A stretch of 64,000 bases of DNA from a virus, in IMG/VR virus record IMGVR_UViG_3300042934_000594, positions 1-64,000 of that record; one strand, 5' to 3'. A program made the position numbers and the translations under genes. Below are positions 1,462 through 61,391 of the stretch, piece after piece. The stretch's first letter is position 1. Every line of letters begins with the position of its first letter. A model generated the notes under the pieces. It saw only the letters and a list, made by a program, of their open reading frames with translations. It had not been told where the DNA came from and ran no database searches.

Positions 1462-1469
1462 TACATTAC
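1462..1469 (+). promoter_or_regulatory. Putative phage RNA polymerase promoter, TACATTAC
   Basis: TACATTAC lies between a terminator and the next gene (1484). It differs by one base from TATATTAC, the known phiKZ early promoter sequence, and its context (AAGACCTACATTACTACGG) resembles the motif at 40310 (GAGACCTATATAACACAGG). Weakest member of the set. Confidence 0.4.
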
Positions 1470-1483
1470 TACGGTGAGTCTTT

Positions 1484-1609
1484 ATGGAAATGAAAACTGT
1501 ACTGTTAGGGCTACTGACCCTAGTCGTGCTGGTAGCGGTAGGTACCGCAGTCGTCGTGGTATTACACGATCCCCCGGTTCCCCCACAATTCAGTCCCCTG
1601 AAACCCTAA
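1484..1609 (+). CDS. 41-aa single-pass membrane peptide
   Basis: ATG 1484 to TAA 1607-1609. MEMK is followed by about 24 hydrophobic residues (residues 5-28, Leu/Val-rich) and a short proline-rich tail (HDPPVPPQF). This is the form of a tiny inner-membrane protein or signal-anchor peptide. A GGTGAG stretch precedes the start, and a promoter-like motif lies 15 bases further up. Found by reading the sequence between annotated genes; no family recognised. Confidence 0.6.
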   Translation: MEMKTVLLGLLTLVVLVAVGTAVVVVLHDPPVPPQFSPLKP

Positions 1610-1627
1610 TACTCCTTTGGAGGTGTC

Positions 1628-2095
1628 ATGTTTAGCGCCAATCGTAAGGCCGAAATGTTCGCAGGCCTGCTTATGGATTACCTCAGCCAGCACCGTTTCG
1701 ACGGTGCCGCTTTTGACGTCCAGCTCAATCGTGAGGTGGGCGACCCTAACCACGTCCTGCTCGAAGTGCTGATCGTGGAGTTCAGCGACCTGGAAGGCGA
1801 TCGCAAGCCGGTGAACCTGCGCGCAAGCATCACCCATGACTTGGTGGGTCATACCCCGACTGCCATACCCTTCATCAGCAACCTTCCCGACAAGCTCAAT
1901 TACTCAGCGCGAGCCTGCAATGCGTTGATCGAGTGTGTTCGGCTGTGCGTAGCAGCGCACCTGAACATCTGCGTGCAAGACATCACTGAAGACGGGTGGG
2001 TCGTGCGCATGTGGGGCACGTTGGGTATTCGCGACTACTACGTTGACCTGGTGCTGGCTGAACCCAAACCTACCACCGCGGTGGAACCGGTATGA
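1628..2095 (+). CDS. Hypothetical protein, 155 aa
   Basis: A strong Shine-Dalgarno (TTTGGAGGTGTC) decides ATG 1628. The protein is soluble and mixed alpha/beta in appearance, with no recognisable motif. Its stop overlaps the next start (ATGA at 2092), so it heads a run of three coupled genes ending at 3020. Confidence 0.7.
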   Translation: MFSANRKAEMFAGLLMDYLSQHRFDGAAFDVQLNREVGDPNHVLLEVLIVEFSDLEGDRKPVNLRASITHDLVGHTPTAIPFISNLPDKLNYSARACNALIECVRLCVAAHLNICVQDITEDGWVVRMWGTLGIRDYYVDLVLAEPKPTTAVEPV

Positions 2096-2571
2096 AGAAC
2101 CCGTTCGCACACTACTTTGGCATCGGGCATCGTCAGGAACTGATCCACGTCCATCAGGGCGGTGACGTCCCTACCGCAGGGGAAGTCCTGCTCTGTCAAC
2201 ACCCGGGGATTACCCATGGGGTGCTGGTGTTGATGTCCTGGACCGGTGAGCGCGACCCTGTGGCGATCCCCAAGATGCTGGCGTCAGGCTACACCCTGTT
2301 TCATGAGGAAGTCACCTTCAACCCGGCCAAGGCCGAGGCGGAGTTTCGTGAAGCCAGTCGTGACCCTGACTTCGTCATTATTGGGGAGACCATCGCTACC
2401 CAGCTGAAGCGTCAGCTCAAAGACTATCCAGAATCGGAACACTACGGTGCGACCCCCGTGCAATACGATGTCACCGATGAGACCCTGATCAAACTGGGTA
2501 TGGGCGCGCCTAAGCACCACACCCACCTCAACCGCAATGGCATCCCCCGTCGAAAAGGAAAAAGCTGGTGA
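2092..2571 (+). CDS. Hypothetical protein, 159 aa
   Basis: Starts in an ATGA overlap with the preceding gene and ends in a GTGA overlap with the next one, so it is translationally coupled on both sides. The C-terminus is basic (RRKGKSW), which could contact nucleic acid, but this is only a hint. No family recognised. Confidence 0.68.
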   Translation: MKNPFAHYFGIGHRQELIHVHQGGDVPTAGEVLLCQHPGITHGVLVLMSWTGERDPVAIPKMLASGYTLFHEEVTFNPAKAEAEFREASRDPDFVIIGETIATQLKRQLKDYPESEHYGATPVQYDVTDETLIKLGMGAPKHHTHLNRNGIPRRKGKSW

Positions 2572-3020
2572 ATAACGGCAATCAGATCGCGCATCATTTC
2601 GTGCGAAACGAAACCATGTCCACCATCGGGTTACTCAAGACCCTGTGCCTGGAATCCGGTAAACCCCTGCTGGAAAAACTCATGGCTGGCATGATCGCCT
2701 CCAAGTACCACGAGGGGCGAGTCAACGGTCACGATCAACAATTGATCTTGGAATTGGCTTGGAGTAAGGCTGAGCAGTCTTCAGCCCGGGTGGAGTTTCA
2801 CCCGGCAGAACGCTTGACCCGCTACCTTGAGCGCTTTACCGCGTTGGCGAAAGCACCCGTATTCAAAGACAAAGAGCACCGTAAGGCGTTCAGCAAGTTG
2901 TTGGAGGATTCTGACTACGTCTGCTGGTACGCTGAAAACGAGAACACCGAGTCGGTGCTGCTTTACCCTAAAGACGTTACCGTACAACCCACCACCATCC
3001 TGCTGATATCGTTTAAATAA
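2568..3020 (+). CDS. Hypothetical protein, 150 aa, GTG start
   Basis: GTG 2568 is supported by AAGGAAAA just upstream and by the GTGA overlap with the preceding gene; the next ATG (2616) lacks a comparable ribosome site. The sequence is predicted to be largely helical in its middle part (residues 25-110). No family recognised. Confidence 0.65.
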   Translation: MNNGNQIAHHFVRNETMSTIGLLKTLCLESGKPLLEKLMAGMIASKYHEGRVNGHDQQLILELAWSKAEQSSARVEFHPAERLTRYLERFTALAKAPVFKDKEHRKAFSKLLEDSDYVCWYAENENTESVLLYPKDVTVQPTTILLISFK

Positions 3021-3043
3021 CTGACCGTTTTACGGAGTTCAGT

Positions 3044-3592
3044 ATGAAAGATCCCATCGTTCCGCCAAACGAGTATGGCAAATCGTTCGTCCTTGAGAAA
3101 AGTAACCTCCCGTTGTTTGCGGGAGTACGACGCATGTTGAACCTGATGGAAAGTCGCATCGGTCACCGCACCGAGGTGATGGACCTGGTTATCGAACGCC
3201 ATACCCGCCAAGACCGGGACGTCTTCTATAAGCTGCATGCAGGGTTAGGAGGCACGCAAGAGTACCGCGTGGTGGTGTCCAACAACTTGCCTGATGAGAT
3301 CATCCTCAACTGGCAGCCGTACTTGTTTGACGTGCAAGTGAAAGTGGTGGCCTCACCGCTGGATCCTGAGCAGACGCCCACAGGGACCCAAGAGATCGCC
3401 AAGTACAACCTGAAGTTGTGCCAGCTTCAGTGCATCGCCGTGTTAATCAAAGACATTGCTCGCCAGCATGGCTTTACGTTCGTCTACGACGCCAAATGCG
3501 TCAGGGCCTTTACCTTAACGCCTCACCCACTGGAGATGACCCTTCAGTTTGAGGGGTCAGGCTTCTATTTACACACCGATCTGTGGAAGTAA
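3044..3592 (+). CDS. Hypothetical protein, 182 aa
   Basis: ATG 3044 follows ACGGAGTTCAGT. The protein is soluble with no membrane segment and no known motif. It lies four bases before the proteasome-like gene at 3597 and is probably co-transcribed with it. Function unknown. Confidence 0.68.
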   Translation: MKDPIVPPNEYGKSFVLEKSNLPLFAGVRRMLNLMESRIGHRTEVMDLVIERHTRQDRDVFYKLHAGLGGTQEYRVVVSNNLPDEIILNWQPYLFDVQVKVVASPLDPEQTPTGTQEIAKYNLKLCQLQCIAVLIKDIARQHGFTFVYDAKCVRAFTLTPHPLEMTLQFEGSGFYLHTDLWK

Positions 3593-3596
3593 GTCC

Positions 3597-4235
3597 ATGA
3601 CAGTTATCGTGTTTGACGGCCGTTACCTGGCTGCCGATTCAATGAGCACCTACGTGAGAGACGGTAAGCCTCTCCAGCACCACTGCAAAACGTGCAAGAC
3701 CGAAACCCCACGTGCTGAGACGGATGCCCAGAAGATCTTTCTGGCCCCTGAAGGCACGTTCTTCGGTGACCGTGAAGTCATGGTCATGGCCACCGCTGGG
3801 GCAGGTCCTTTGGCCTGCGGGATGAAAACCCTGTTGGTGGCAGGCGACATGATGCCTAGGCTGGGTATGATCCATGAGTTCTGGAAAGCGGGGCGTTTCC
3901 CCCACGACTCCTCAATGCTGCTGGTCTGTAAAGACAACTACGTCTTTAAGATCAACTTCAACAACAAGGAACTCAAGATTCAAGGCACGGACCGGGAATG
4001 GCCGTTGCTGTTGGGTTCAGGGGCAGAGGCTGCGCACATGGCACTGACCCTAACTGGGTGTAAGGCCTATGAGGCCGTGGCCCACAGCTATAAGGTCTCC
4101 CCACATGTAGGGGGTCCGATCAAATACGTGGACGTCCAAGCCAAGGGCGATCTTGTGATTCAAGAATACACCATACCCGACGCGGAGCAGAAACCATGTC
4201 CAACCAGACCCAAGAAACCGGGGAAATCACGATAA
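3597..4235 (+). CDS. Proteasome/HslV-like Ntn hydrolase
   Basis: Probable N-terminal nucleophile hydrolase of the 20S proteasome beta/HslV fold. ATG 3597 is preferred over 3549 because it places Thr directly after the initiator Met (MTVIVFDGRYLAADS), the position of the catalytic nucleophile after Met removal. The following DGRYLAADS matches the first beta hairpin with its Asp, and DAQKIF near residue 46 has the lysine-hydrophobic signature of the active-site lysine. GAGPLACGM near residue 77 fits the glycine-rich turn of the fold. Odd feature: CKTCKTE (residues about 29-35) inserted before the lysine could bind metal. HslV proteins are shorter (about 175 aa). No HslU-like ATPase is present nearby. 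Substrate unknown. Confidence 0.6.
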   Translation: MTVIVFDGRYLAADSMSTYVRDGKPLQHHCKTCKTETPRAETDAQKIFLAPEGTFFGDREVMVMATAGAGPLACGMKTLLVAGDMMPRLGMIHEFWKAGRFPHDSSMLLVCKDNYVFKINFNNKELKIQGTDREWPLLLGSGAEAAHMALTLTGCKAYEAVAHSYKVSPHVGGPIKYVDVQAKGDLVIQEYTIPDAEQKPCPTRPKKPGKSR

Positions 4236-4825
4236 GTGGTGTCTCACCTGAATGTGCCGTACTGATTCAAGAACTGGTCCGCCGAGCACTGCGGGTCAAT
4301 GACTTCATCGGCTGTGAGGTGCACTACCACCCGCCGGTGATTGACTCGGATGCAGAGACCGCACCTGCACGCAATCACAGTGGCCTGGATGAGACCTACT
4401 TGGACCTCACCAACGCTGTGGCTGAAATGTTGCAGGACCCTAAAGTGCTGCGGCTCTTTGATCACCGCTGGTCAGGGAAGTACCACTACATGTGGCCAGG
4501 TCAAACGTGGGAGACTGCCCCACTGGGATCCCTACTGCGTAATCGCCTGCTGAGGTTACGCGAGTTTTTGTCCAGCACGTCCCACAATGGAAAACTCGAC
4601 GCCATGTCCCGTCGCCTGCTGGCCCTGGGGGTGGATGCTAAAGTCTACTTGGGTATCGAGAAACCCATCTACACGGTGGATCTGGGTCAACTGCCTAAGA
4701 TCACCCCCACCGCCGTCCCTTACAGCGAACACATCGCCCGACCGGATTTCGTGGACGCCCAGGGCAATGTTACGCACTGGTTGTCCATTGAGATCAATGC
4801 CAAAAGTGGCGTGATGGTGTTCTAA
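4196..4825 (+). CDS. Hypothetical protein, 209 aa
   Basis: ATG 4196 overlaps the end of the proteasome-like gene by 40 bases in another frame and is preceded by GCGGAGCAG. The reading frame has no later reasonable start before residue 80. The protein is soluble with no recognised domain. The long overlap suggests coupled translation with the hydrolase gene, but no functional link can be shown. Confidence 0.65.
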   Translation: MSNQTQETGEITISGVSPECAVLIQELVRRALRVNDFIGCEVHYHPPVIDSDAETAPARNHSGLDETYLDLTNAVAEMLQDPKVLRLFDHRWSGKYHYMWPGQTWETAPLGSLLRNRLLRLREFLSSTSHNGKLDAMSRRLLALGVDAKVYLGIEKPIYTVDLGQLPKITPTAVPYSEHIARPDFVDAQGNVTHWLSIEINAKSGVMVF

Positions 4826-4835
4826 GGAGACCTTC

Positions 4836-5084
4836 ATGAACTACGTACTGCTGTTAACCGTGTTGTTTTGTGTGGGCTTTCGAATCCGACGCATCTACGA
4901 CGAGGCCCAGTCTTATCGCCTGGCCTGGGGCATCAGTTGGAAAACCTCACTGCGTTACCACGTCGAATGGGATCGGCATATTGCCCGCACCATTGGTACG
5001 GCGGTAGCGATCATCGTCATTTATGCCCTGGTGTGGGGGACGGTCAACTACGGTTGCCTGTTCCTCAAGGGTGTGGCCTGCTGA
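4836..5084 (+). CDS. Small membrane protein, 82 aa
   Basis: Good Shine-Dalgarno (AAGGAGACCTTC) before ATG 4836. A hydrophobic N-terminus (residues 1-15) is followed by a basic, aromatic loop and a clear transmembrane segment at about 52-76. The C-terminus carries two cysteines. Probably an inner-membrane protein; no family recognised. Confidence 0.65.
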   Translation: MNYVLLLTVLFCVGFRIRRIYDEAQSYRLAWGISWKTSLRYHVEWDRHIARTIGTAVAIIVIYALVWGTVNYGCLFLKGVAC

Positions 5085-5104
5085 AAAACACTGGCTTGTC
5101 AAAG

Positions 5105-5112
5105 CTATGTAA
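5105..5112 (+). promoter_or_regulatory. Putative phage RNA polymerase promoter, TATGTAAC
   Basis: TATGTAAC followed by TC lies 22 bases before ATG 5134. The identical octamer occurs upstream of genes at 36560 and 61460. It fits TAT(A/G)TNAC, close to the phiKZ early promoter TATATTAC. Confidence 0.5.
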
Positions 5113-5133
5113 CTCATCCCAAGGAATATCCCC

Positions 5134-5982
5134 ATGTCTAACTCGTTCAATGACGTGCTCAGCGTTGCTGACAGCATCTCCATCGCCCTGGATCCACGCA
5201 ACACGCATGGCTCGTATCGCGCCAGTATTACCTGCGGTGCTAGCACGCTGTCCACGCGCTATGCCCCTGAAAAGGGTGAAGGTGTACTGGCGGCGTTCGT
5301 CAAGACGCTGAACCTGTCGATGTCCGACATCGATCAGCACGCAGACGGTGCCCCCGGCGAGTTCGCAGAACGTCTGCAACAGGTGCGTATCTTTGAGATC
5401 GACACCAGCAAGGAATTCCAGTTCCCGAACCTGCCGTTCGACGGCACCGACAGCGAAACCCTGTTCAAGAACGCACGCAGCGTAAACTGGGCGTGGAATC
5501 AGCTGATCGTTGACGAGAAGCCGGTGACCGAGCTGACCTGTTCGGTGTCGTTGGGTGCTGTGACGGAAAGCGTGTCGATCACCCCTGAAGGTCCGCGCAT
5601 GGCCAACATGGTGTCCACCCTGGTGACCTGCCTGAACAACCTGCTCAAGCGTATCACCCTGGTCAAAGGTGAAATCCGTCCCAAGCTCAACAGCGGCGGC
5701 GTGATGACCACCAGCGAAGAACTGTTGAATCAGGCGTTGAGCATTGACTACAGCTTCGTCGAACAGCGCGACCGCAGTTTCGCGGTGATGTGCTCCGTCG
5801 ACCTGCTGTTCTGGGGCCGTGGTCGCAGTGTGGCCGTGGTGGGTAATCGTACTGAAGCGATGGCTGAAGCATTGGAAGAGTGCCTGGTGGCACTGTCCTT
5901 TGACTTTGCAGAAGCCGCGGCCGGTACCGAGATGGCCATCTCTGAAATCCTCAAGACGCGCAAGGCTGCCGAGGAGGCGTAA
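5134..5982 (+). CDS. Hypothetical protein, 282 aa
   Basis: ATG 5134 follows AAGGAATATCCCC and a promoter-like TATGTAAC. The reading frame uses strongly C/G-ending codons (CTG, GGC, AAC), like the sheath and tubulin genes and unlike its small neighbours, which suggests high expression. The protein is soluble, begins MSNSFNDVLSVAD and has no recognised motif. The next gene starts in its stop codon (TAATG). Confidence 0.7.
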   Translation: MSNSFNDVLSVADSISIALDPRNTHGSYRASITCGASTLSTRYAPEKGEGVLAAFVKTLNLSMSDIDQHADGAPGEFAERLQQVRIFEIDTSKEFQFPNLPFDGTDSETLFKNARSVNWAWNQLIVDEKPVTELTCSVSLGAVTESVSITPEGPRMANMVSTLVTCLNNLLKRITLVKGEIRPKLNSGGVMTTSEELLNQALSIDYSFVEQRDRSFAVMCSVDLLFWGRGRSVAVVGNRTEAMAEALEECLVALSFDFAEAAAGTEMAISEILKTRKAAEEA

Positions 5983-6224
5983 TGAGCGAGCCGACCAAGG
6001 CTAACATCGGGGCGTCAATGCCCCCTGTTAAAGACACCACCACCAAGGTCATGCAGATTGACCCAGACGATGTCAACCCTGCACAAACGGCTGAGCGGGC
6101 ACACGCCGAGGGCTTTGCGGTGCGTGACACCAACGGCGAACTGGTGGACGAAGAAAACTTCCGTCACCTCAAGCCCAACTTCGTACCGGTACATATCGAC
6201 TTGATTGAACCTAAGGACAGCTAA
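5982..6224 (+). CDS. Hypothetical protein, 80 aa
   Basis: Starts in a TAATG overlap with the preceding gene and is probably coupled to it. The protein is hydrophilic and acidic in its second half, likely flexible at the N-terminus (SEPTKANIGASMPP). No family recognised. Confidence 0.65.
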   Translation: MSEPTKANIGASMPPVKDTTTKVMQIDPDDVNPAQTAERAHAEGFAVRDTNGELVDEENFRHLKPNFVPVHIDLIEPKDS

Positions 6225-6225
6225 C

Positions 6226-6564: not shown

Positions 6565-6633
6565 GAAACTACTGGTGCAGGTAATACTGTGCTAGTAGTC
6601 CGCTAGTGTTTGTCCCACTACAGGAGCCCCAGC

Positions 6634-7163: not shown

Positions 7164-7170
7164 TCCTCCA

Positions 7171-11418: not shown

Positions 11419-11654
11419 ACGGGGCTAACAAAGCAACCATCCGGGGATTGACCATCCGGGCCAAGAATACGTTGCGTGATCAGCTGGTGCGTTTCCTGGA
11501 AAGCAAACGCGACCTCAGCGGTAATGAGCAAATGGCTTTGAGCATCCTGCAAGCCGATGAGCGCCTGACCCTGACGGTGTCTGACACCCACCTCGCCCTA
11601 CAAGGGGTTGACCAGCAGGGTAAGTTCAGCAGCACTACCTTGCACTTGGTTTAA
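11415..11654 (+). CDS. Hypothetical protein, 79 aa
   Basis: ATG 11415 overlaps the stop of the ADP-ribosyltransferase-like gene (ATGA), pointing to coupled expression. The protein is basic at the N-terminus (KATIRGLTIRAKNTLRDQL) and otherwise mixed. It could be a partner of the enzyme, but no motif supports a specific role. Confidence 0.62.
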   Translation: MNGANKATIRGLTIRAKNTLRDQLVRFLESKRDLSGNEQMALSILQADERLTLTVSDTHLALQGVDQQGKFSSTTLHLV

Positions 11655-11658
11655 CGTC

Positions 11659-11666
11659 TATATCAC
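11659..11666 (+). promoter_or_regulatory. Putative phage RNA polymerase promoter, TATATCAC
   Basis: The core is part of CTATATCACCCAGG (11658-11671), which shares 12 of 14 positions with the motifs at 18726 and 40309. It lies 29 bases before ATG 11696. Confidence 0.6.
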
Positions 11667-11695
11667 CCAGGTGTCCCTAGCCGTTTGGAGGACCC

Positions 11696-12208
11696 ATGGT
11701 CTACCCCATTGTGTTACAACGTCCCACCGGCACACGCCGGCGTGAGTACTTCGCGTTTAGTCAACAGGATTATCGGTTGACGCTGGATGAGTTCGTGCAG
11801 GTGTTGGACCGTTGTGACGAATGGGTGGTGGCTGCAACGCTGCACCACTACCACACCGTGGACGTCGCCACGCAACAGCGCGTCATGCGCGAATGGCAAG
11901 ACAGACTCAATAACCCCGCCATCCGCACCCAACGGACGGTGGACACCGAGGTTGCCCTACGGTACGCCCCCGCCCACATGCAGAAAGAGCATGGGTGGGC
12001 CTTGTTGTCCTGTCGAGCGACTTCCTTGGTGGTGAAAATCGCCAGGGATTCTTACTTACTGGACCTAAGCTATGGCAGAGTGATGGCGGTCTTTGCTTTT
12101 GACCCTATCCACCAAGTCCGCGTCGGTCAAAAGCTCCACACTCTGACCATTCCAGGCGATCACCCCGTTCTGGAATTGTTTGTTCAAGAACACACCCCCC
12201 TTGATTAA
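11696..12208 (+). CDS. Hypothetical protein, 170 aa
   Basis: TTTGGAGGACCC before ATG 11696 is a good ribosome site. The protein is soluble with a charged middle region and a hydrophobic C-terminal half. Preceded by a promoter-like CTATATCACCCAGG, so it probably opens the unit 11696-12799. No family recognised. Confidence 0.66.
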   Translation: MVYPIVLQRPTGTRRREYFAFSQQDYRLTLDEFVQVLDRCDEWVVAATLHHYHTVDVATQQRVMREWQDRLNNPAIRTQRTVDTEVALRYAPAHMQKEHGWALLSCRATSLVVKIARDSYLLDLSYGRVMAVFAFDPIHQVRVGQKLHTLTIPGDHPVLELFVQEHTPLD

Positions 12209-18660: not shown

Positions 18661-18665
18661 AAGCG

Positions 18666-18683
18666 GGCACCCTTCGGGGTGCC
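18666..18683 (+). terminator. TTCG-loop terminator with TTATGTCGTCTTTT tail
   Basis: Perfect stem GGCACCC/GGGTGCC, TTCG loop, then TGTTATGTCGTCTTTTCTTTTT. Confidence 0.85.
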
Positions 18684-18726
18684 TGTTATGTCGTCTTTTC
18701 TTTTTGATCGCACGGGTTTTGAAACC

Positions 18727-18734
18727 TATATGAC
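18727..18734 (+). promoter_or_regulatory. Putative phage RNA polymerase promoter, TATATGAC
   Basis: Part of CTATATGACTCAGG (18726-18739), the CTATATNACNCAGG motif also found at 11658 and 40309. A sigma70-like reading (TTGATC 18704-18709, 17 bases, TATATG) is also possible. It serves the repressor-like gene at 18791. Confidence 0.6.
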
Positions 18735-18740
18735 TCAGGT

Positions 18741-18761
18741 GTGAAAGCTGGCAGCTTTTAC
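18741..18761. promoter_or_regulatory. Palindromic operator candidate
   Basis: GTGAAAGCTG and CAGCTTTTAC are inverted around one central G, matching at 9 of 10 positions. The site begins two bases after the promoter-like motif and 30 bases before the ribbon-helix-helix gene, the expected place for an autoregulatory operator. Confidence 0.45.
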
Positions 18762-18790: not shown

Positions 18791-19162
18791 ATGACTGAGA
18801 AGTCCAGGGGTCAAGGACACGCGTACCCATCACGTTTCGCGGACAAATTTGTCGTGCGTTTGGCCGATGGCGTGCGGGAACGCATTCTGGCGATGAGCAA
18901 AGAAAAGCACATGTCCATGAACAGCTTGATGCACGGCTGGGTCATGGAGGGCCTTCTGCGTGATGAAGGTGGGGCTGCCCGCTGGGTACCACGAAAGGGC
19001 ATGGTGATCTACGACACCCTTCAGTCTAAGGTCGGCGAGATCGTCGGCTTTACGTTAAGGCAGGGTGAGCTCTACATCAACTACGAAGACATAGAAGACC
19101 CCATGCGCGACCGCATCCTCACCCAACATGCGGCCGATTGCCAACCGTTCACGGTTTTCTAA
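18791..19162 (+). CDS. Arc-like ribbon-helix-helix DNA-binding protein
   Basis: Residues about 14-57 follow the Arc/MetJ ribbon-helix-helix pattern: DKFVVRLADGVRERILAMSK (strand then helix A) and HMSMNSLMHGWVMEGLL (helix B), as in phage P22 Arc. Such proteins act as dimers that insert a beta ribbon into the major groove of palindromic operators. A 65-residue C-terminal extension starting at KGMVIYDTL is not part of Arc and may sense a ligand or partner. The palindrome at 18741-18761 just upstream suggests autoregulation. Confidence 0.75.
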   Translation: MTEKSRGQGHAYPSRFADKFVVRLADGVRERILAMSKEKHMSMNSLMHGWVMEGLLRDEGGAARWVPRKGMVIYDTLQSKVGEIVGFTLRQGELYINYEDIEDPMRDRILTQHAADCQPFTVF

Positions 19163-22356: not shown

Positions 22357-22364
22357 TATGTAAT
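22357..22364 (+). promoter_or_regulatory. Putative phage RNA polymerase promoter, TATGTAAT
   Basis: TATGTAAT lies 24 bases before ATG 22389 and differs by one base from the TATGTAAC seen at 5105, 36530 and 61384. Confidence 0.4.
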
Positions 22365-22388: not shown

Positions 22389-23081
22389 ATGCTTGAAGCC
22401 CTGCTCAGCGGTAAACCCGCCATCTTTTCACAAGCCCCCGTACTGATGCTCGACCCGAGCAATCTGGCAACCGGCTCGACCGCTATCGCTGACAGCTCAG
22501 GGAAGGCTGTGACCGTGACCAACACTGGGGTAGTGGTAGCCAACAAAGGACCTAAGGCCGGGATGAAGTCGCTGTACTTCAGCAACACGGCGAACTGTTA
22601 CCTGCGCCTGCCGTATGCGCAGCTTCCCAACCTGCTGCGTGGTGACTTCACCATCGAGTTCTGGTACCAGCCTGAATCGCTACCCAACGGCGTTGAGGCC
22701 ATTATCGCTCAGTGGGCTCAAATCACCAACAAGGGTGGTTTCCTTACACACACCGGTTCGGGCAACCGCATCTTCACGTGGGGGCCCTACAGCGAGAACG
22801 CTGCCCTTAACACCGAATCGCAAGACACCATCGGCGTCTGGCGACACACAGCCATTGTGCGCAAGGACGGTGTCTTCAGCTTCTTCACGGATGGTACGTA
22901 CCGAAGCGGTGGATCGCGGCCAGAGTCGCGTGACCAGATCGGCGTGGACTGGACCGTGGGGGCCTACTTCGGGCCTGGCAACGGTATCCCACAAAGTGGA
23001 TACGCCCGTTTGAACGGTTGGATAGCAGGATTGCGTGTTTATACCGCGGCCAAATACACCAGTAATTTCACCCCTGCTTAA
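22389..23081 (+). CDS. LamG/concanavalin A-like lectin-fold tail protein
   Basis: The pattern DFTIEFWYQPESL (near residue 82), a middle IFTWGPYSENA, then WRHTAIVRKDGVFSFFTDG (near 155) and a C-terminal IAGLRVYTAAKYTSNF is that of LamG/concanavalin A-like jelly-roll domains, which bind sugars. In phages these sit on tail fibres or baseplate decorations and contact host polysaccharide. The protein starts MLEALLSGKP, an N-terminus shared with the next two genes. About 230 residues, a single domain. Confidence 0.72.
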   Translation: MLEALLSGKPAIFSQAPVLMLDPSNLATGSTAIADSSGKAVTVTNTGVVVANKGPKAGMKSLYFSNTANCYLRLPYAQLPNLLRGDFTIEFWYQPESLPNGVEAIIAQWAQITNKGGFLTHTGSGNRIFTWGPYSENAALNTESQDTIGVWRHTAIVRKDGVFSFFTDGTYRSGGSRPESRDQIGVDWTVGAYFGPGNGIPQSGYARLNGWIAGLRVYTAAKYTSNFTPA

Positions 23082-24590: not shown

Positions 24591-24675
24591 GGAGAGGTTC
24601 CCGAGCGGTCAAAGGGAGGGGACTGTAAATCCCCCGTCGTGTACTTCGAAGGTTCGAATCCTTCCCTCTCCACCA
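24591..24675 (+). tRNA. tRNA-Tyr (GTA)
   Basis: Acceptor GGAGAGG/CCTCTCC, discriminator A and encoded CCA. Anticodon GTA at 24625-24627, a long class II variable arm and the T arm GGTTCGAATCC. A full bacterial-type tRNA-Tyr. Confidence 0.93.
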
Positions 24676-24681
24676 TTTCAT

Positions 24682-24760
24682 TGGGGCATAGCCAAGTCTG
24701 GCCTAAGGCAACAGGTTTTGATCCTGTCATTCGTTGGTTCGAATCCAACTGCCCTTACCA
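24682..24760 (+). tRNA. tRNA-Gln (TTG)
   Basis: Anticodon stem ACAGG/CCTGT with loop TTTTGAT gives TTG. Acceptor TGGGGCA/TGCCCTT with a weak first pair, as usual for tRNA-Gln, then A and encoded CCA. T arm GTTGGTTCGAATCCAAC. Six bases after tRNA-Tyr, so co-transcribed. Confidence 0.88.
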
Positions 24761-24765
24761 TTTAC

Positions 24766-24852
24766 GACCCTTTGCCATTGCCCGCGCTTGCCTATGTGCG
24801 AACAGCGCAGGAGGCGTCGCATTAACCCAGCGGTACGTCCGCTGGGAGGGTC
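24766..24852 (+). ncRNA. tRNA-sized structured element A
   Basis: Closed by GACCCT (24766-24771) and AGGGTC (24847-24852). It contains an arm GCGCT/AGCGC and, stacked on the closing stem, an 8-bp perfect hairpin CCCAGCGG/CCGCTGGG (24826-24846). No T arm or D arm consensus. Could be an RNA gene or a folded spacer. Confidence 0.35.
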
Positions 24853-24860
24853 ACCCTTGT

Positions 24861-25019
24861 TTGAAGCGTTGAGAGCGAGTGGTGGAACATGGTATACGTG
24901 GGGGATAGCATCCCCTAGTCGGGGAATATAGACTCCGGCCGCCTGTCCGTTGGTGCCTTCGTGGTTTGCGGGTTCGAACCCCGCCTCAGAGAGAACGGAT
25001 CATATTCTCAACGCTTCAA
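24861..25019 (+). ncRNA. tRNA-like element B inside a 14-bp stem
   Basis: TTGAAGCGTTGAGA (24861-24874) is perfectly complementary to 25006-25019. Inside are a D-arm-like AGTGGTGGAACATGGTATACG, a hairpin GGGGATAGCATCCCC, and a perfect T arm GCGGG-TTCGAAC-CCCGC (24968-24984), as in tRNA-Leu. The segment between D-like and T arms is about 70 nt, far too long for a tRNA, and the nucleotides after the T arm do not pair with a 5' acceptor. Either a disrupted tRNA-Leu or a new structured RNA. Confidence 0.45.
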
Positions 25020-25026
25020 CTTTTTA

Positions 25027-25103
25027 GACGCCGTAGCTCAGTTGGTTAGAGCACTAGCCTGTCACGCTAGGGGTCGAGGGTTCGAGTCCCTTCGGTGTCG
25101 CCA
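25027..25103 (+). tRNA. tRNA-Asp (GTC)
   Basis: Acceptor GACGCCG/CGGTGTC, discriminator G, encoded CCA; D arm AGCTCAGTTGGTTAGAGC; anticodon GTC at 25061-25063; T arm AGGGTTCGAGTCCCT. Canonical in every arm. Confidence 0.95.
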
Positions 25104-25107
25104 TATT

Positions 25108-25191
25108 CAACGTAGGGAGAACTAGGGATCATACCCCTAGCCAGTTACTCATGAACTGGTCGCTTAGTCAGGTATAAAGCAATCTACGTTG
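25108..25191 (+). ncRNA. Cloverleaf-like element C without T-loop
   Basis: Closed by CAACGTAG (25108-25115) and CTACGTTG (25184-25191). Three arms follow: CTAGGG-ATCATAC-CCCTAG (a 7-nt loop that reads like a CAT anticodon loop), CCAGTT-ACTCATG-AACTGG, and GCTT/AAGC. Length 84 nt, as for a tRNA, but neither a GTTC T-loop nor a D arm is present. Placed exactly between tRNA-Asp and tRNA-Asn. Confidence 0.4.
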
Positions 25192-25203
25192 TCTTAGTTT
25201 CAT

Positions 25204-25279
25204 TCCATGATAGCTCAGTTGGTAGAGCAACGGACTGTTAATTCGTTGGTCCCTGGTTCGAGTCCAGGTCATGGAGCCA
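25204..25279 (+). tRNA. tRNA-Asn (GTT)
   Basis: Acceptor TCCATGA/TCATGGA, discriminator G, encoded CCA; D arm AGCTCAGTTGGTAGAGC; anticodon GTT at 25237-25239; T arm CTGGTTCGAGTCCAG. Canonical. Confidence 0.95.
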
Positions 25280-25289: not shown

Positions 25290-25307
25290 GCCTCCCGCAA
25301 GGGAGGC
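25290..25307 (+). terminator. Terminator of the first tRNA unit
   Basis: Stem GCCTCCC/GGGAGGC with GCAA loop, CATACG on the left and TTTATGTCGG on the right. Confidence 0.8.
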
Positions 25308-25339
25308 TTTATGTCGGATCTGTATTTAAGGAGTGGAGT

Positions 25340-31415: not shown

Positions 31416-31494
31416 TTTAGTTCACTTGCCCAGGCGGAGGAAGGAGGCCCACAGGCATCCCGATGTATAGCATTGGACGTGTGGACGGCATAAA

Positions 31495-31515
31495 CCCTCC
31501 CCGTAACAGGGAGGG
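31495..31515. terminator. Bidirectional hairpin with TTTATGCCGTC on the - side
   Basis: Stem CCCTCCC/GGGAGGG. On the - strand it follows nrdB and is continued by TTTATGCCGTCCAC, the recurring tail; on the + strand by CCTTTTGGTGTCTTTTA. Confidence 0.8.
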
Positions 31516-31529
31516 CCTTTTGGTGTCTT

Positions 31530-36529: not shown

Positions 36530-36537
36530 TATGTAAC
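36530..36537 (+). promoter_or_regulatory. Putative phage RNA polymerase promoter, TATGTAAC
   Basis: CTATGTAACTC, identical over ten bases to the motif at 5104-5114, lies 22 bases before ATG 36560. Confidence 0.5.
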
Positions 36538-36559: not shown

Positions 36560-36931
36560 ATGAAAACTCAACACGTGTACGCCAAAATTGCCGCCGCCCT
36601 GTGGGTGACGTTTCTGCAACAAGAAATCCCCACCAGTGAACCGGCTGAGCTGAAGATGTTGACAGTCACCCTGAAGGATCAGATGTTGACGGTGGACGTT
36701 AAGACCCGTCGTGAAACCGACCCTACCCAGTCCGACTACACCTTCACCTATCCCGTGGGTGAAACCAGTCGTCGTGAAGTGGTGATCCAACTGTTGAGCC
36801 AGATCCTGGAAGAGCTGGACGATGTCCCGCAAGACTTGCTGGACCGCAACTTCGTACTCACCGTCAAGGTTTCCCCACAGGAAATCTCCGACATTGACCT
36901 GACTCATACCGAACCTGGATCCGATGACTAA
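36560..36931 (+). CDS. Hypothetical protein, 123 aa
   Basis: ATG 36560 follows CGAGGACTGGC. Soluble; it overlaps the DHFR gene by eight bases, so the two are co-translated. An acidic C-terminus (TEPGSDD). No family recognised. Confidence 0.64.
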   Translation: MKTQHVYAKIAAALWVTFLQQEIPTSEPAELKMLTVTLKDQMLTVDVKTRRETDPTQSDYTFTYPVGETSRREVVIQLLSQILEELDDVPQDLLDRNFVLTVKVSPQEISDIDLTHTEPGSDD

Positions 36932-37430: not shown

Positions 37431-37436
37431 TGTAGA

Positions 37437-37457
37437 GCCCCCTGCTTCGGCAGGGGC
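37437..37457 (+). terminator. TTCG-loop terminator
   Basis: Stem CCCCTGC/GCAGGGG, TTCG loop, then CTTTATGTTGTTTATCC. Confidence 0.85.
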
Positions 37458-37507
37458 TTTATGTTGTTTATCCTCTGAGCACCACGTTCGGGCTCAGGGG
37501 AGGGTAC

Positions 37508-40214: not shown

Positions 40215-40309
40215 GTGTTATTCCTTAGGCGCTATAAAAGAAAGATGACGAAATACGCCTGTATCCACAGCATTAGTGCATATTTAGGTAACGAAAAACT
40301 CTAGAGACC

Positions 40310-40317
40310 TATATAAC
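40310..40317 (+). promoter_or_regulatory. Putative phage RNA polymerase promoter, TATATAAC
   Basis: Part of CTATATAACACAGG (40309-40322), the best representative of the CTATATNACNCAGG motif. It lies in the 157-base divergent region between terL (-) and the gene at 40372 (+). Confidence 0.65.
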
Positions 40318-40371
40318 ACAGGGGACAGCTACACAATGGTCGTAACTTTTATACCCTCATTCGGAGGCTAG

Positions 40372-55560: not shown

Positions 55561-55626
55561 TTTTGTGCCGTCACAAGAATCACCTCGCTGCCTTATATGA
55601 CACGTACCCCCACCCCTGGAGTCAAC

Positions 55627-56055: not shown

Positions 56056-56065
56056 CAGCATAAAG

Positions 56066-56085
56066 CGCCTCCCTACGGGGAGGCG
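56066..56085. terminator. Bidirectional terminator
   Basis: Stem CGCCTCCC/GGGAGGCG with TACG loop; CATAAAG on the left and TCTATGAC on the right, closing two converging genes. Confidence 0.82.
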
Positions 56086-56093
56086 TCTATGAC

Positions 56094-57380
56094 CTATGCC
56101 ACGTGCTTGATATTGGAGCGCACGTTGACAGCCTGTGTGGACGCGCCTGAGCCGTTTGAGTAGTAACCCTTGGTCATCGCGCGGACTGTGATGTAAAGCA
56201 GCACACCGGTCCTCACAGCTGCCACCACAGCCGGATTACGGCTACGGATCGCTTGTCCTACCATCCGCTCGGTGTATTCACGCAACTTGAGTACGGTGGG
56301 GTCACTGGAACGCGACGCCATCAACAGCGAACGCAGTTTAGCCAACAGCGCCGCGATGTCATTGGAATGACCCACCATGGTGCGGTTGTTTTGCAGGTAG
56401 TCGAACGTGTATAGCAAGTTCTCGGTGATAATCTCATCGAGGTAACCCATGTTGGGTTTGCCGTAGTTGTTGGACATGAACAGCAACGCTTCACGCAGCA
56501 ACTGCGGTGGCATTGACTGCATGGCCGAAGCAATGACTTCGACCAGCTCTTCACGGATGAAGTTACGTTCTGTCTGGACCACCATCTTCAGGTAACGCAT
56601 GTAATCGGCGTAACCGTTCTTACGGTCTTTGAGCACTTGTTCCCCATCGGTGTTGAGCATGGTCTCTGAGGTCGAACGAATACGTCCCCCAGACGCCAAG
56701 GTCTCCAGGTACACCGCGTAGATCTTCTTGACCACTTCCCGGATACGGCCTTGGGTGTCCGTCACCACCCGGATCAGGGACGGATCGGGCTCAAAGCGTT
56801 CGATGGCCTGGCGGTAGATCGAGTTAGGGGAAATCAGATCCTCTGCCCGCGCTTGCAACAAGGCGCGCCAGCTGCCGTACCGACGGATGTCAAACCGACC
56901 CGACAGGGAAGCGTAGGTGGCAGTGGCCACTTCAGGGTCAGCGGGGTAACGGAAACGCTTGACCAACAGTGACGTCAGGAACCGGTAGTGCAGGACCATG
57001 AACGCATGGGTCATGGCCTCGTGGCGCAGCGCTTGAGGGATACCGCTCTCTTTCTGAAGCCGGTGGCAGATGTAGATGGGGGTGTAGTTGAACACATCCG
57101 ACATCACCTTGAACTCGAAGTTGATGGCCTTGACCTTGCGAAAGGCTGCAAACAACAAGTCCTCGTCCACTTCCAGCACGTCTTCGTACCAGGCTTCCCG
57201 GTCAGACTCCAGAAAGCGAATAGGGTTAACCCCCAATAACACACCGCCAAAGAAGGCGGAGTGGTCATCGTTGCGGTTCATGTACTTGAGGGAAAACTGG
57301 ATCACCCGCTTGCAAAAAGCCGTATCGAATTTAACCTGATCAAACTGCTGATCGAAGGCTTCTTTGATGGTGAGGTTCAT
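56094..57380 (-). CDS. Large unknown protein, 428 aa
   Basis: Starts at ATG 57380 after CCAGGGTCTTTT; an ATG at 57395 is less well placed. Predicted fully helical with many basic residues (VVQTERNFIREELVEVIASA), and a moderately hydrophobic stretch near the C-terminus (PAVVAAVRTGVLLYITV) that could be a membrane helix or a buried one. Isolated - gene between + units. Could be a virion or head protein, but no family recognised. Confidence 0.6.
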   Translation of the reverse strand: MNLTIKEAFDQQFDQVKFDTAFCKRVIQFSLKYMNRNDDHSAFFGGVLLGVNPIRFLESDREAWYEDVLEVDEDLLFAAFRKVKAINFEFKVMSDVFNYTPIYICHRLQKESGIPQALRHEAMTHAFMVLHYRFLTSLLVKRFRYPADPEVATATYASLSGRFDIRRYGSWRALLQARAEDLISPNSIYRQAIERFEPDPSLIRVVTDTQGRIREVVKKIYAVYLETLASGGRIRSTSETMLNTDGEQVLKDRKNGYADYMRYLKMVVQTERNFIREELVEVIASAMQSMPPQLLREALLFMSNNYGKPNMGYLDEIITENLLYTFDYLQNNRTMVGHSNDIAALLAKLRSLLMASRSSDPTVLKLREYTERMVGQAIRSRNPAVVAAVRTGVLLYITVRAMTKGYYSNGSGASTQAVNVRSNIKHVA

Positions 57381-57473
57381 AAAAGACCCTGGCATGATGT
57401 TTGAAAATATTTAAGACCTAGATCATTGGGATGAATAAACCCAATTGTACCAACTACTAAGGAGTAGACTCAC

Positions 57474-58400
57474 ATGAAACACCCAATGTCGGCCCTCGCT
57501 CAATTCAACTTTGCTCAAGAACCTGAGGTCCGCCGAATCCAACAGGCGCTTAAGCACTACTACAACAGCCACATGGCTGAAGCTGCCAAAGCCCCTTTGG
57601 CCGATATCCACGATTTCGGTCTGTTTCTGTATCACGATGCACATGGCGAGACCGAACTTAAAGTCGCCTACCTGCCCACCGGTGATTACACCCTGGTGAG
57701 TTGCCCACCGGACGTGACTGGGTTTGATGCCAGCGAATGGTTCTTGACCCAAGTGGACCGTTGGTTGTCGGAGTACACCCCCGACCTCGTCCAACTGTTT
57801 GAGTCGCATGCCGAACAGGTGAGTGCCAAAGAGCATGCCTGGTACCGGGTGAACTCTGTGTCGGCTGAGAACGCCCTGGTGCTGCAAAAGCAGCTGGAAG
57901 ACAGTAACTTCTGGTTGACGACGATGAGTATGCGCACCGAAATGCTGCCGCGCTACCAGTACCCGATGATGTTGCACGACGAGCAAGGTCTGCATCAGGA
58001 CGAAAGCATCGTGACGCGTGAAGAGCTGCGTTACCGACTGAAGTTCTTTGTGGCTGACAACCCGGATGCATTCAAGCATCAAGGTCTGATGCAGCAAGTG
58101 ACCAGCATCTTCCTGGACGATGACTTCTACTTCTTCAATGCCTCGGTACTGGAGCGTGACGATCACCGCGTTCTGCAATACCGCGGCCGGCAGCGATTGG
58201 CGGCTGACGACCTGGCACCTCACTTCTTTGAGTTGCGCCTGGAGCTGATCGTCGAAAAGGCCGACCCCCACGCCGTGCTGTCCACTCTCGCCCGAGTGCG
58301 TGATGTCGTGGGGGACCGCCTTGAAGTGAAGGACGGTTCCATGATCTCGGAAGAAAATCGCTTCGGTAGCCTTAAGACCCGTGCGGGTCTGACGGAATAA
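57474..58400 (+). CDS. Unknown protein, 308 aa
   Basis: ATG 57474 follows AAGGAGTAGACTCAC. Acidic, soluble, with long helical parts (LKHYYNSHMAEAAK; LRLELIVEKADPHAVL) and a beta-rich middle. Mostly C/G-ending codons. No family recognised. An AAGACCTAGATCATT sequence upstream (57412-57426) faintly resembles the promoter motif. Confidence 0.66.
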   Translation: MKHPMSALAQFNFAQEPEVRRIQQALKHYYNSHMAEAAKAPLADIHDFGLFLYHDAHGETELKVAYLPTGDYTLVSCPPDVTGFDASEWFLTQVDRWLSEYTPDLVQLFESHAEQVSAKEHAWYRVNSVSAENALVLQKQLEDSNFWLTTMSMRTEMLPRYQYPMMLHDEQGLHQDESIVTREELRYRLKFFVADNPDAFKHQGLMQQVTSIFLDDDFYFFNASVLERDDHRVLQYRGRQRLAADDLAPHFFELRLELIVEKADPHAVLSTLARVRDVVGDRLEVKDGSMISEENRFGSLKTRAGLTE

Positions 58401-58681
58401 AAGCGGCCCGCCGGCCGCCGTCATACAGGGTGAAACAACCAGGTACCCAAACAGAACGTGACGAAGCTAGAGACCTCTGTGTCTCTAGCGTTCTTCGAAA
58501 ACAACGTTCAGCTGTATAGAGAAATCTAAACAAAAATAACTTAAAAAGTGTATATATAGAGAGGGGGGACCGACACCGGAGGGGGCGGGACCCCCCTCCT
58601 TATTCTTTTATATTTTTTAGAGTTAGTTAGTGGTGATTATCACAGCATGTAGTTATTTAGTTTAATCTCCCAGAGGTGATT
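58401..58681. other. AT-rich non-coding segment with hairpins
   Basis: Longest gene-free stretch outside the tRNA array. It holds a perfect 9-bp hairpin GCTAGAGAC/GTCTCTAGC (58466-58489), an AT-rich core with TATATATAG (58548-58560), a hairpin with 8-bp GAGGGGGG/CCCCCCTC arms, and GTGATTATCAC. No open frame with a ribosome site. Candidate origin, strong promoter, or regulatory RNA. Confidence 0.4.
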
Positions 58682-59656
58682 ATGAACGAAGACCGTAAAC
58701 CCGGTGTACTGCAACGACTCAAGACCGCTGTGCGCAAAGTGTTCAAACGCCCAGCCCCTGAACCCAAGACCTTGGACGACACCGTCAAGCGCAAGGACGC
58801 CATGCCGGAAGCGATGCGTCAACACGCCCCCGAGCGCGGTCCTCTGGAACTGCCTACTCGCCAGATAGGTGAAGTAGAGCATGTATTCTTCACTCAACAA
58901 CCCGCAGACCCATCCGGCGTTACTCTGCACCGAGAGGAGGTTGACCAGGTTCAGTGGTCGCTCGATTGGTTCATGACCACCGCCGTTGCCGACCGGGCTG
59001 CCTTCGAATCGTTTCTGATGGACAACTGGTCGTCCTTCCAGGGCAGTGCCATCACCGATACGATCTTTCGTACCAAGCTCATCCGATCCAAACTCACGGA
59101 TTTCTTCCGCGATCATCCCCAGATGCATTTTGTGTTGCCCAACGAGTACAACGGCATCAAGGTCATCCACTGGGGGATTGCCAAAGAAGAAGACCGCACC
59201 GCATTCATTGAGATGTTCCGTGAGAAACACTGGTTGATCCGTGGGTTCACGCCTATTGAAGCGGATGACTTCAGTTTCAACCAGCCCGATGCGCAAAAAC
59301 AGCTTGATGCCTTTCTGGGCGAGCACTACCTGACTACCGCCGTGCACCCGGAAACCTTGGCCAGTTTCCAAGCGGCGGCTGCGTTGGACCTGAATGCAAG
59401 CCCCGAACCCTTTACGGGCAACCCGTACATCGTGGACCCTAAATCACCGGTCGGTCAGGTGCTGGCCCGGCAGTCGGGCAAGGCTCGTGTACAGGATGCG
59501 GTCGACGACGTCATTGAGCGTCTGGGTGGGATCGTCCCTGATGAAGCCGGGCACGCCAGTCGGGTCACCCCGATGACGGAGAAGCCGGTAAAGTTCCGTC
59601 AACAGGGTCAACCTCGCAACACCCGTAAGAAATCTAAGAAACCTGGTAAGAAATAA
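58682..59656 (+). CDS. Unknown protein, 324 aa, basic at both ends
   Basis: ATG 58682 is six bases after AGAGG; a GTG at 58676 is possible. The N-terminal 30 residues are basic (RLKTAVRKVFKRPAPEPK), the middle is globular and acidic, and the end is a disordered basic tail (RKKSKKPGKK). The basic tails suggest binding to DNA, RNA or acidic proteins. No family recognised. Followed nine bases later by the QueC-like gene. Confidence 0.64.
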   Translation: MNEDRKPGVLQRLKTAVRKVFKRPAPEPKTLDDTVKRKDAMPEAMRQHAPERGPLELPTRQIGEVEHVFFTQQPADPSGVTLHREEVDQVQWSLDWFMTTAVADRAAFESFLMDNWSSFQGSAITDTIFRTKLIRSKLTDFFRDHPQMHFVLPNEYNGIKVIHWGIAKEEDRTAFIEMFREKHWLIRGFTPIEADDFSFNQPDAQKQLDAFLGEHYLTTAVHPETLASFQAAAALDLNASPEPFTGNPYIVDPKSPVGQVLARQSGKARVQDAVDDVIERLGGIVPDEAGHASRVTPMTEKPVKFRQQGQPRNTRKKSKKPGKK

Positions 59657-59665
59657 GGAGTGGAT

Positions 59666-60934
59666 ATGACTGATGAGAAGCGCCCCCTGATCCTGTGGTC
59701 CGGGGGTTTGGATTCAACGTTCCTGATGTACCAACAGCTGCTCAATGGGCCGGTGGATTACATTGTCATGGACGGGGGTCAAAGCCGGTCTAAGATCCGC
59801 ATGGAGGAGGAAGCGCGCACCAAGGCACTGAATTGGTTCGCTGCGCAGGGCCTGCCCTACCCGCATCAATTGAACACGGCCGATCCCATGACGCTGGCTA
59901 AGATGCCCGGCATCAGTTGGTCGCAAACGATCCCGTGGTTGATCGGTGCGTTGTATGCCGCGGACCATCGTAAGCACCACAGTGTGATGATCGCCTACGT
60001 GATCGGTGATGAACCAGTGCACCTGAAGGACGTCTTCAGTCAAACCTTCGAAGGCCTGCAACGGATTTCCAAACACGGTGACCCCGTTCCCCTGTGCTTC
60101 CCGTTCCTGGATGGGTTCGTCAACAAGCGCCGGATCTTGCACGAGATCCCCCGTGGCCTGCTCGAGTGCGTCTGGTACTGCGAGCTGCCTGAGAAAATCA
60201 ACGTCACCCCGTGTCAGTTTGAGATGGTCAGTGGCAAGCGGTGTGAATGGAAGGCTAACGATCAGTTGGTGATTGAGGTCATCCAGGAAGGGGATGTGGA
60301 ACGCGTCGAATTGAGTGCGCTTTACCTTCAACCTGAACACCGGGTGGTCATGCCCGACGGCTCTGTCGAGGTGGTCAGCAAAGCGGTCGAGCAAATCGAC
60401 AACGTGTACATCTGGCAGCGTTGCAATAACTGTCCGGCGTGTGTGACGCATGACCTGGAACTGGTGCGCTATCAGCGCCTGGGTAAACACATCGGCTATC
60501 GCAAGGATGTGGGCGTGGAGGATCCTGTACCTGCCCCGGGTAAAGAGCTGCCACCCCCGGACGCCACCGTGTTCCTGGTGGCCACCGCTGAGCAAGTCTT
60601 GACCATCGCGCAAAGCGGTCTCACCGCCGGCACCCAGTTCCACGCCACCTCAGAACAGGCCGCCCTGGAAGTCAACAACTGGCTGGCGGGTGGGTTCCCA
60701 GGGGACGACATCCGCGTGATCGAAGTGGACTACCATTCGGGCATGCGTGGGCAAGACGCTCCAGCCAAAGACTGGATCTTAGACTGTGCGTTGAGCACAG
60801 GTTTCATCCGCCGCCTGCGCGATCGCAATGGCACCCAACTGCTCTGGCCCGTCCCGTGGGAAGAAACAAGCACCCCGGACGACGTCGTCGAGCAACTCGT
60901 CGAACTGGCAAACACACTCAAAGAGGAGGTCTAA
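59666..60934 (+). CDS. PP-loop ATPase, QueC-like
   Basis: ATG 59666 is fixed by AAGGAG. PP-loop SGGLDS at residues 12-17 (LILWSGGLDSTFL) activates a carboxyl or carbonyl with ATP. A zinc-type CNNCPAC (Cys 253, 256, 259) with another cysteine upstream (KRCEW near 192) resembles the QueC zinc site. QueC makes preQ0, the precursor of queuosine in tRNA and of 7-deazaguanine DNA modifications found in several phages. The protein is 422 residues, about twice QueC, with an insert between the two motifs and about 110 extra C-terminal residues, so another PP-loop reaction is possible. No QueD, QueE or FolE gene lies in this window. Confidence 0.68.
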   Translation: MTDEKRPLILWSGGLDSTFLMYQQLLNGPVDYIVMDGGQSRSKIRMEEEARTKALNWFAAQGLPYPHQLNTADPMTLAKMPGISWSQTIPWLIGALYAADHRKHHSVMIAYVIGDEPVHLKDVFSQTFEGLQRISKHGDPVPLCFPFLDGFVNKRRILHEIPRGLLECVWYCELPEKINVTPCQFEMVSGKRCEWKANDQLVIEVIQEGDVERVELSALYLQPEHRVVMPDGSVEVVSKAVEQIDNVYIWQRCNNCPACVTHDLELVRYQRLGKHIGYRKDVGVEDPVPAPGKELPPPDATVFLVATAEQVLTIAQSGLTAGTQFHATSEQAALEVNNWLAGGFPGDDIRVIEVDYHSGMRGQDAPAKDWILDCALSTGFIRRLRDRNGTQLLWPVPWEETSTPDDVVEQLVELANTLKEEV

Positions 60935-61263
60935 TGAAACGCATCAAGGATCTGATTAAAGCGTATGCGGTGGCTCCCATCGAAGTGGACCATGATGACC
61001 TGATTGATGGCAACCTGACGGTGTGGTACTCCACCGACGGTACACACGCTGAGCAGCGGTTGCTCAAGCACGACAACGAACCCCTGGCCGAAGGCGATCT
61101 TTACTATGGGTTCATGCCGATCGAAGGTACACAAGTGGCGGTGATGAACTTCCATTACTTGCACAACCTGCGTACCAACCGTATAAGCCCGGCATTGCGC
61201 CAGTGGCCCCAAGGCTTTCGAGCCATCCTCAGCGGCACTGCTTACGTCACCCCCAAGGAGTAA
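60934..61263 (+). CDS. Hypothetical protein, 109 aa
   Basis: Starts in the stop of the QueC-like gene (TAATG), preceded by GAGGAGGTC. Basic N-terminus (KRIKDLIKAYAV), then globular. Translation is coupled to the QueC-like gene. No family recognised. Confidence 0.62.
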   Translation: MKRIKDLIKAYAVAPIEVDHDDLIDGNLTVWYSTDGTHAEQRLLKHDNEPLAEGDLYYGFMPIEGTQVAVMNFHYLHNLRTNRISPALRQWPQGFRAILSGTAYVTPKE

Positions 61264-61265
61264 CC

Positions 61266-61361
61266 ATGGCTTCCATGTATGGCATGTACGGCCTTCGTCG
61301 TACCGTTAAATCCAAACCGTTGCCCAAAGCACTGAACAAGTTGCTGGCCCGGGCGAAGTAA
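61266..61361 (+). CDS. 31-aa basic peptide
   Basis: ATG 61266 follows CAAGGAGTAACC four bases after the preceding stop; TAA ends at 61361. The product starts MASMYGMYGLRRTVKSKPLP and ends KALNKLLARAK: Met/Tyr/Gly then strongly basic. The excellent ribosome site supports translation. It sits just upstream of the promoter for phuZ. No family recognised. Confidence 0.55.
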   Translation: MASMYGMYGLRRTVKSKPLPKALNKLLARAK

Positions 61362-61383
61362 AGAAACACCCGTAGCAATGTAG

Positions 61384-61391
61384 TATGTAAC
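61384..61391 (+). promoter_or_regulatory. Putative phage RNA polymerase promoter for phuZ, TATGTAAC
   Basis: TATGTAAC in the 98-base gap before ATG 61460; the same octamer is found at 5105 and 36530. Confidence 0.5.

Follow-up and report, generated by a model that had tools for sequence, protein, structure and literature searches.

Early promoters of a phiKZ-like jumbo phage share one strand and often lead into a hairpin at the predicted transcription start

The window analyzed here comprises bases 1-64,000 of the 269,430-base virus record IMGVR_UViG_3300042934_000594. Its motif sites at 1462, 11659, 18727 and 40310 belong, with a probability of about 90%, to a set of at least 17 early promoters that a phiKZ-like nucleus-forming phage carries for its virion RNA polymerase (vRNAP), an enzyme injected together with the DNA. 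The early code in this genome reads TTTGAAACC-TATATNAC-N4-GTG, with an AT-rich box centred ~10 nt upstream of an invariant G; by analogy with the mapped starts of AR9 and phiKZ, the vRNAP would read this motif and begin transcription (+1) at that G. An earlier note on this DNA had described eight gap sites with a TAT(A/G)TNAC core as promoters of the phiKZ early type. This identification holds for four of the eight sites, whereas a single class of eight is not supported.

All eight sites are present in gaps, one of them displaced by a single base (5106 instead of 5105). TATGTAAC occurs at 5106, 36530 and 61384; TATATNAC is found at 11659, 18727 and 40310, and forms with one change lie at 1462 (TACATTAC) and 22357 (TATGTAAT). 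The proposed 14-nt form CTATATNACNCAGG was recovered exactly at 11658, 18726 and 40309. It recurs in the record at 201982, 228423 and 233475 (exact) and at 136377 (one mismatch), and is absent from the opposite strand of the whole record. One further site, TATATGAC at 55594, had been overlooked. The motif is real, as confirmed by its placement: although the window holds about as many copies of TATRTNAC as expected by chance (7 vs 6.45, both strands), all seven copies lie on the plus strand and in gaps, which by our own gene calls make up 9.6% of the window, compared with 0.51 expected per strand, and none of 300 shuffles reached seven. The comparison of gaps with genes that had been proposed as a refutation test thus came out in favor of the motif in the window. 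Genome-wide, TATRTNAC occurs 20 times on the forward and never on the reverse strand, whereas the reversed control pattern is found four and five times, respectively.

Alignment of 16 sites from the whole record yields TTTGAAACC-TATATNAC-NCAG-GTG, with columns T13, A14, A16, T17, C20 and G27 invariant in alignment numbering. Hereafter, position 0 is the initial T of the box; in this count, the predicted start is G14, which is conserved in 16/16 sites. R1, a sequence-only model of 16 sites, all from the present phage, matches 17 places in the record, all on the plus strand and including the promoter of the ChmA homologue at 77358. In the window it matches exactly four, all located in gaps ahead of plus-strand genes:

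1453-1476, plus strand: early (vRNAP) promoter, core TACATTAC at 1462-1469, predicted +1 G at 1476; R1 20.6 bits, E 2.6e-5.
11650-11673, plus strand: early promoter, core TATATCAC at 11659-11666, predicted +1 at 11673; R1 19.0 bits; gap 11655-11695.
18718-18741, plus strand: early promoter, core TATATGAC at 18727-18734, predicted +1 at 18741; R1 26.9 bits, E 2.2e-7.
40301-40324, plus strand: early promoter, core TATATAAC at 40310-40317, predicted +1 at 40324; R1 19.1 bits; in the divergent gap 40215-40371, adjoining the terminase gene.

A position matrix trained without 1462, on which true sites score 19-43, assigns 26.3 to this site despite its exclusion from training. Applied to phiKZ itself (five stretches, 230 kb), R1 matches 11 sites, all on the plus strand and including sites just before the known early genes gp54 (chmA) and gp68. 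The earlier note had presented a downstream CAGG as a new block of the motif. It is better read as the NNNG-GTG initiation region, because G14 matches the mapped AR9 start and the same GTG stands in the published consensuses of 201phi2-1, OBP and N1M2. TATATNAC does resemble TATAAT, and the sites could in principle be -10 boxes of host sigma-70. This is highly improbable: the AAACC conserved before the box and the GTG conserved behind it fit a phage enzyme, as does the recurrence of this architecture in phages infecting Pseudomonas, Salmonella, Erwinia, Burkholderia and Klebsiella, and passages of PMC10612078 describe phiKZ transcription as independent of the host RNA polymerase (RNAP).

Judged from its genes, the phage is phiKZ-like, encodes ChmA and is a member of the Chimalliviridae, the nucleus-forming jumbo phages: ChmA shell protein (homologue at 77433, nuclear shell phrog_4795, E 1.3e-174), PhuZ tubulin (gene at 61418) and two RNAPs were all found. 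Its ribonucleotide reductase is 61% identical to the phiKZ counterpart, and phiKZ gene order is kept for terminase, tail sheath and phiKZ026-032-like structural genes. The earlier claim that the phage encodes its own polymerases outside the window was borne out. Searches with phiKZ proteins located one gp74-like subunit of the non-virion RNAP (nvRNAP; record 93982-95967, 57% identity) and one gp80-like vRNAP subunit (record 101684-103093, 51% identity), and these two subunits indicate that both multisubunit RNAP sets are present in the genome. A profile search with PF04997 gave no match in the record, though it was positive in 14/14 cellular controls. The closest described phages reach only ~50% identity in a conserved structural protein. 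IMG/VR searches with the phiKZ027-like protein and with ChmA returned no relatives; relatives were recovered from the same database with the gp74 homologue and with a 24-nt promoter pattern.

To follow the motif beyond this genome, R1 was run on 19 further records, namely seven IMG/VR records (G001-G007) and twelve named phages. It found 83 matches in the former and 77 in eleven of the latter (phiKZ, Noxifer, EL, OBP, LucasX, FLC9, Ea35-70, Centimanus, PCH45, SPN3US and HPP-Temi); a scan of Vibrio phage pVa-21 gave none. A model built from the present phage hence finds early promoters in most nucleus-forming phages tried. Together with the 17 sites described here, this amounts to 177 matches in 19 records, restricted to one strand within each record, a number to be read with the caveats that the early strand carries the majority of genes in any case (78 of 88 gene calls in the window), that the records are related and that R1 catches the better sites only. 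Wherever its orientation is known, the gp74-like nvRNAP gene is also found on the early strand. The terminase gene lies on the early strand in EL, LucasX, Ea35-70, Centimanus, PCH45, SPN3US and G001-G003 and opposite to it in phiKZ, PhiPA3, Noxifer, 201phi2-1, HPP-Temi, FLC9, OBP, G005, G006 and the present phage, where PhiPA3 and 201phi2-1 are the IMG/VR records G004 and G007, taken as such. Because terminase orientation varies between records, the one-strand rule is not merely inherited gene order: late blocks flipped repeatedly, early promoters did not. One possible cause would be that a circularly permuted genome is pulled into the cell partly by the injected polymerase, which would require all promoters to point one way. 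Passages of PMC10612078 give 7-30 vRNAP copies per phiKZ virion, comparable to the number of early promoters. Alternatively, early transcription might be kept co-directional with replication.

Many early leaders are stem-loops that begin at the predicted +1, with unrelated sequences between promoters. The following examples illustrate their range:

18741-18761, plus strand: 5'-terminal hairpin, 9 bp from +1, GUGAAAGCU-GGC-AGCUUUUAC; minimum free energy (MFE) -9.7, z -2.9.
11673-11693, plus strand: 5'-terminal leader hairpin; MFE -7.3, z 0.2, thus present but not stronger than in shuffles.
Record 228372: hairpin from +1, GUAAGCGCAGUC-UUCG-GACUGCGUUUAU.
Record 250445: hairpin from +1, GGUAAGCU...GGCUUGCU.

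Folding of each 28-nt stretch was compared with dinucleotide shuffles at offsets from -60 to +84 relative to the predicted start. Mean z in the present phage is -1.74 at the predicted +1 and -1.34 at -4, compared with -0.7 to +0.5 elsewhere, and stems beginning exactly at +1 were counted at 9 of 17 promoters (3.5 in shuffles). Two terminator-like leaders (228358 and 257230) were considered as the sole source of this signal and rejected, as mean z at +1 is still -1.42 without both. Across 97 promoters from 14 other records, a single minimum is observed at offset 0 (mean z -1.02; all other offsets -0.67 to +0.23). The hairpin is strong in FLC9 (z -3.6) and SPN3US (z -2.9, with a stem from +1 at 4/4 promoters) and clear in PCH45, Ea35-70, Centimanus and G001-G003. 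Since hairpins were not used in building the promoter model, their lock to G14 lends independent support to this base as the start.

Several observations weigh against the early-promoter assignment. The +1 positions are themselves predictions from the AR9 and phiKZ analogy, and the training sites were mostly picked by their TATRTNAC core, so that conservation of the core is partly by construction. Hairpins are absent or weak at 1462, 40310 and 132637 in the present phage; Noxifer, HPP-Temi, PhiPA3 and 201phi2-1 likewise show them weakly or not at all. Free of core-picking are the flanks, G14, the cross-match to phiKZ and the sites at 133240, 232146 and 91785; among the 97 promoters of other phages, T13 is conserved in 91 and G14 in 94.

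In bacteria, 5'-terminal stems protect RNA against decay of the RppH/RNase E type. The most likely role of the hairpin, which we hold at roughly even odds, would accordingly be to remove a single-stranded 5' end and thereby shield early mRNA from 5'-end-dependent degradation. It may instead aid RNA release by the vRNAP, serve as a tag for a phage protein or act at the DNA level. The last option, an inverted repeat after +1 that works as a cruciform or as a downstream element for the vRNAP, comparable to the promoter hairpin of the N4 vRNAP, is unlikely. Its position is locked to the promoter while its sequence varies, as such an element would allow, but many phiKZ-type promoters carry no repeat. 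G.U pairs moreover show no depletion (12% and 10%, against 15% and 11% for shuffled sequences); this is a weak test, which mildly favors RNA because a DNA hairpin would disfavor G.U pairs. A hairpin acting in the RNA bears on the open question of how early mRNA survives in the cell.

Further features were noted in the leaders. The hairpin at 11673 extends into the Shine-Dalgarno sequence (GGAGGAC) before the ATG at 11696, which may point to translational control. Between 228358 and 228520 of the record, three TATATCAC boxes lie within 160 bp, the first of which runs into a UUCG hairpin followed by TTTATGCC; its RNA might be only ~30 nt long. Of the 17 leaders, 8 contain an ATACC(C) box (vs 4-8% of control stretches), in most cases 26-38 nt downstream of the predicted +1 and usually just ahead of the Shine-Dalgarno sequence; among them are those following record positions 18741, 40324, 77372, 136392, 201997, 228438 and 233490. 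The box is also found in leaders of G001-G003 and is a possible translation element. Its identification with the phiKZ middle-promoter motif AAANTTACC was rejected, because transcription beginning 24 nt further on would start at or within the genes.

Taken across the nucleus-forming jumbo phages, we consider it an even chance that the code of early promoters extends past the box in two ways, with an RNA hairpin at the 5' terminus, starting at +1, and with a strict same-strand rule. If so, the hairpin would protect or mark early mRNA, and the same-strand rule would be expected from one-directional genome entry pulled by the injected polymerase or from co-directionality with replication; the rule thereby bears on the open question of a role for this polymerase in the entry of the genome. 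Passages on such promoters, located by keyword, mention neither the strand rule nor hairpins at +1, and the phiKZ transcriptome study might report a one-strand rule.

The remaining four of the eight sites carry TATGTAA and differ from the early promoters:

5106-5113, plus strand: TATGTAAC, not early; candidate late (nvRNAP TATG) start, G 25 nt before the ATG at 5134.
22357-22364, plus strand: TATGTAAT, candidate late start, G 29 nt before the ATG at 22389.
36530-36537, plus strand: TATGTAAC, candidate late start, G 27 nt before the ATG at 36560.
61384-61391, plus strand: TATGTAAC ahead of the PhuZ gene, with a terminator-like hairpin behind it; either a candidate late start or a chance occurrence.

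One early class with a loose TAT(A/G)TNAC core, as the earlier note saw it, would account for the fact that TATGTAAC is likewise concentrated in sense-strand gaps (3 vs 0.09 expected; 4 vs 0.33 for TATGTAA in the window). This view is nevertheless improbable: all four sites fall below the early threshold, with matrix scores <6 and no R1 match, they lack T13/G14 and an upstream TTTGAAACC, and TATGTAAC occurs only three times in the whole genome. The TATGTAA sites are better regarded as a distinct element, most likely late nvRNAP promoters in which the G of TATG would be +1, with 25-29-nt leaders at three of them. In phiKZ, the late nvRNAP start is given as T-3ATG+1 in passages of PMC4666361 and PMC10612078. 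In line with such a function, TATG is found 32 vs 17 times in sense gaps (reverse complement, 14), though it comprises only four bases and terminator ends (hairpin-TTTATG) inflate the count; 8 of the 32 lie 20-29 nt ahead of start codons, a bin picked after the data had been seen. The odds of late starts are about even because TATG also ends the terminators of this phage. Once separated from the early class, the TATGTAA sites are candidates for late starts, a class so far not predictable from sequence.

Gaps throughout the window hold intrinsic terminators of one style, in which TTTAT(G/A)CC comes after a GC-rich hairpin whose loop is often TTCG (for example 18661-18695, 25290-25320, 31485-31520 on the minus strand and 37431-37470). 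Among 5-mers in sense gaps, TTTAT shows the highest enrichment (27 vs 8). Terminators of the same style are found in phiKZ near 206350. Because the TATG at their ends is identical to the signal for late starts, terminators might also serve as late promoters.

Other features of the window are:

57410-57433, plus strand: weak early-promoter candidate TAGATCAT, G at 57433; matrix 17.1, no R1 match; best further plus-strand matrix match in the window (best minus-strand match 14.4).
55594-55601, plus strand: TATATGAC without T13/G14 and upstream AAACC; not counted as early.
1484-1609, plus strand: uncalled 41-aa open reading frame with one hydrophobic stretch, the first after promoter 1462, with an 8-nt leader.
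18791-19162: first gene after promoter 18727, Arc-like repressor, phrog_38161.
24591-25279: gene-poor stretch that holds four tRNA genes, for Tyr, Gln, Asp and Asn.
58401-58681: 281-bp gap with no gene called; part of it is very AT-rich (TATATATAGAGAGGGGGG), and it also contains a long GC hairpin.

As a promoter, the early element falls within expectation: it belongs to a known class, to which the present phage adds one more member. It shares with the phiKZ early promoters (TATATTAC) the box, the single-strand restriction and T13/G14 in most sites. It departs from phiKZ in the free sixth base of the box (TATATNAC, with C or G outnumbering T), in a stronger upstream AACC and in more frequent 5' leader hairpins (mean z -1.74 vs -0.60). 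Its TATGTAA sites carry TATG a short distance before start codons like the phiKZ late promoter, whereas passages of PMC4666361 on the latter make no mention of the longer form TATGTAA(C/T). AR9, with AAATATATATTAT-(6N)-G+1, has an identical spacing from box to start G (G at position 14); its mapped start, like those of phiKZ and phiR1-37, lies 6 nt after the box, as reported in passages of PMC5312081. AR9 differs in its uracil-containing DNA, the ATTAT ending of its box and the lack of an AACC block. Published or annotated promoters of EL, OBP, 201phi2-1, N1M2 and phiKZ match the early motif (PMC7058600, table 2, and EL regulatory features). In the same part of PMC7058600, the 201phi2-1 consensus TATATTACDWHDGTG places TTTRARR before the box and GTG 4 nt behind it, EL is given as WTTTYAAACCTACATTATY, and the OBP and N1M2 consensuses end in ...ADTG and AAGTG. 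Compared with the present phage, these promoters have a fixed T in place of its N, and the OBP and N1M2 boxes end in ATTAT. The shared build of EL, OBP, 201phi2-1 and N1M2 is TTTRARR or TTTYAAACC upstream, then the box, then GTG where the published consensus extends so far.

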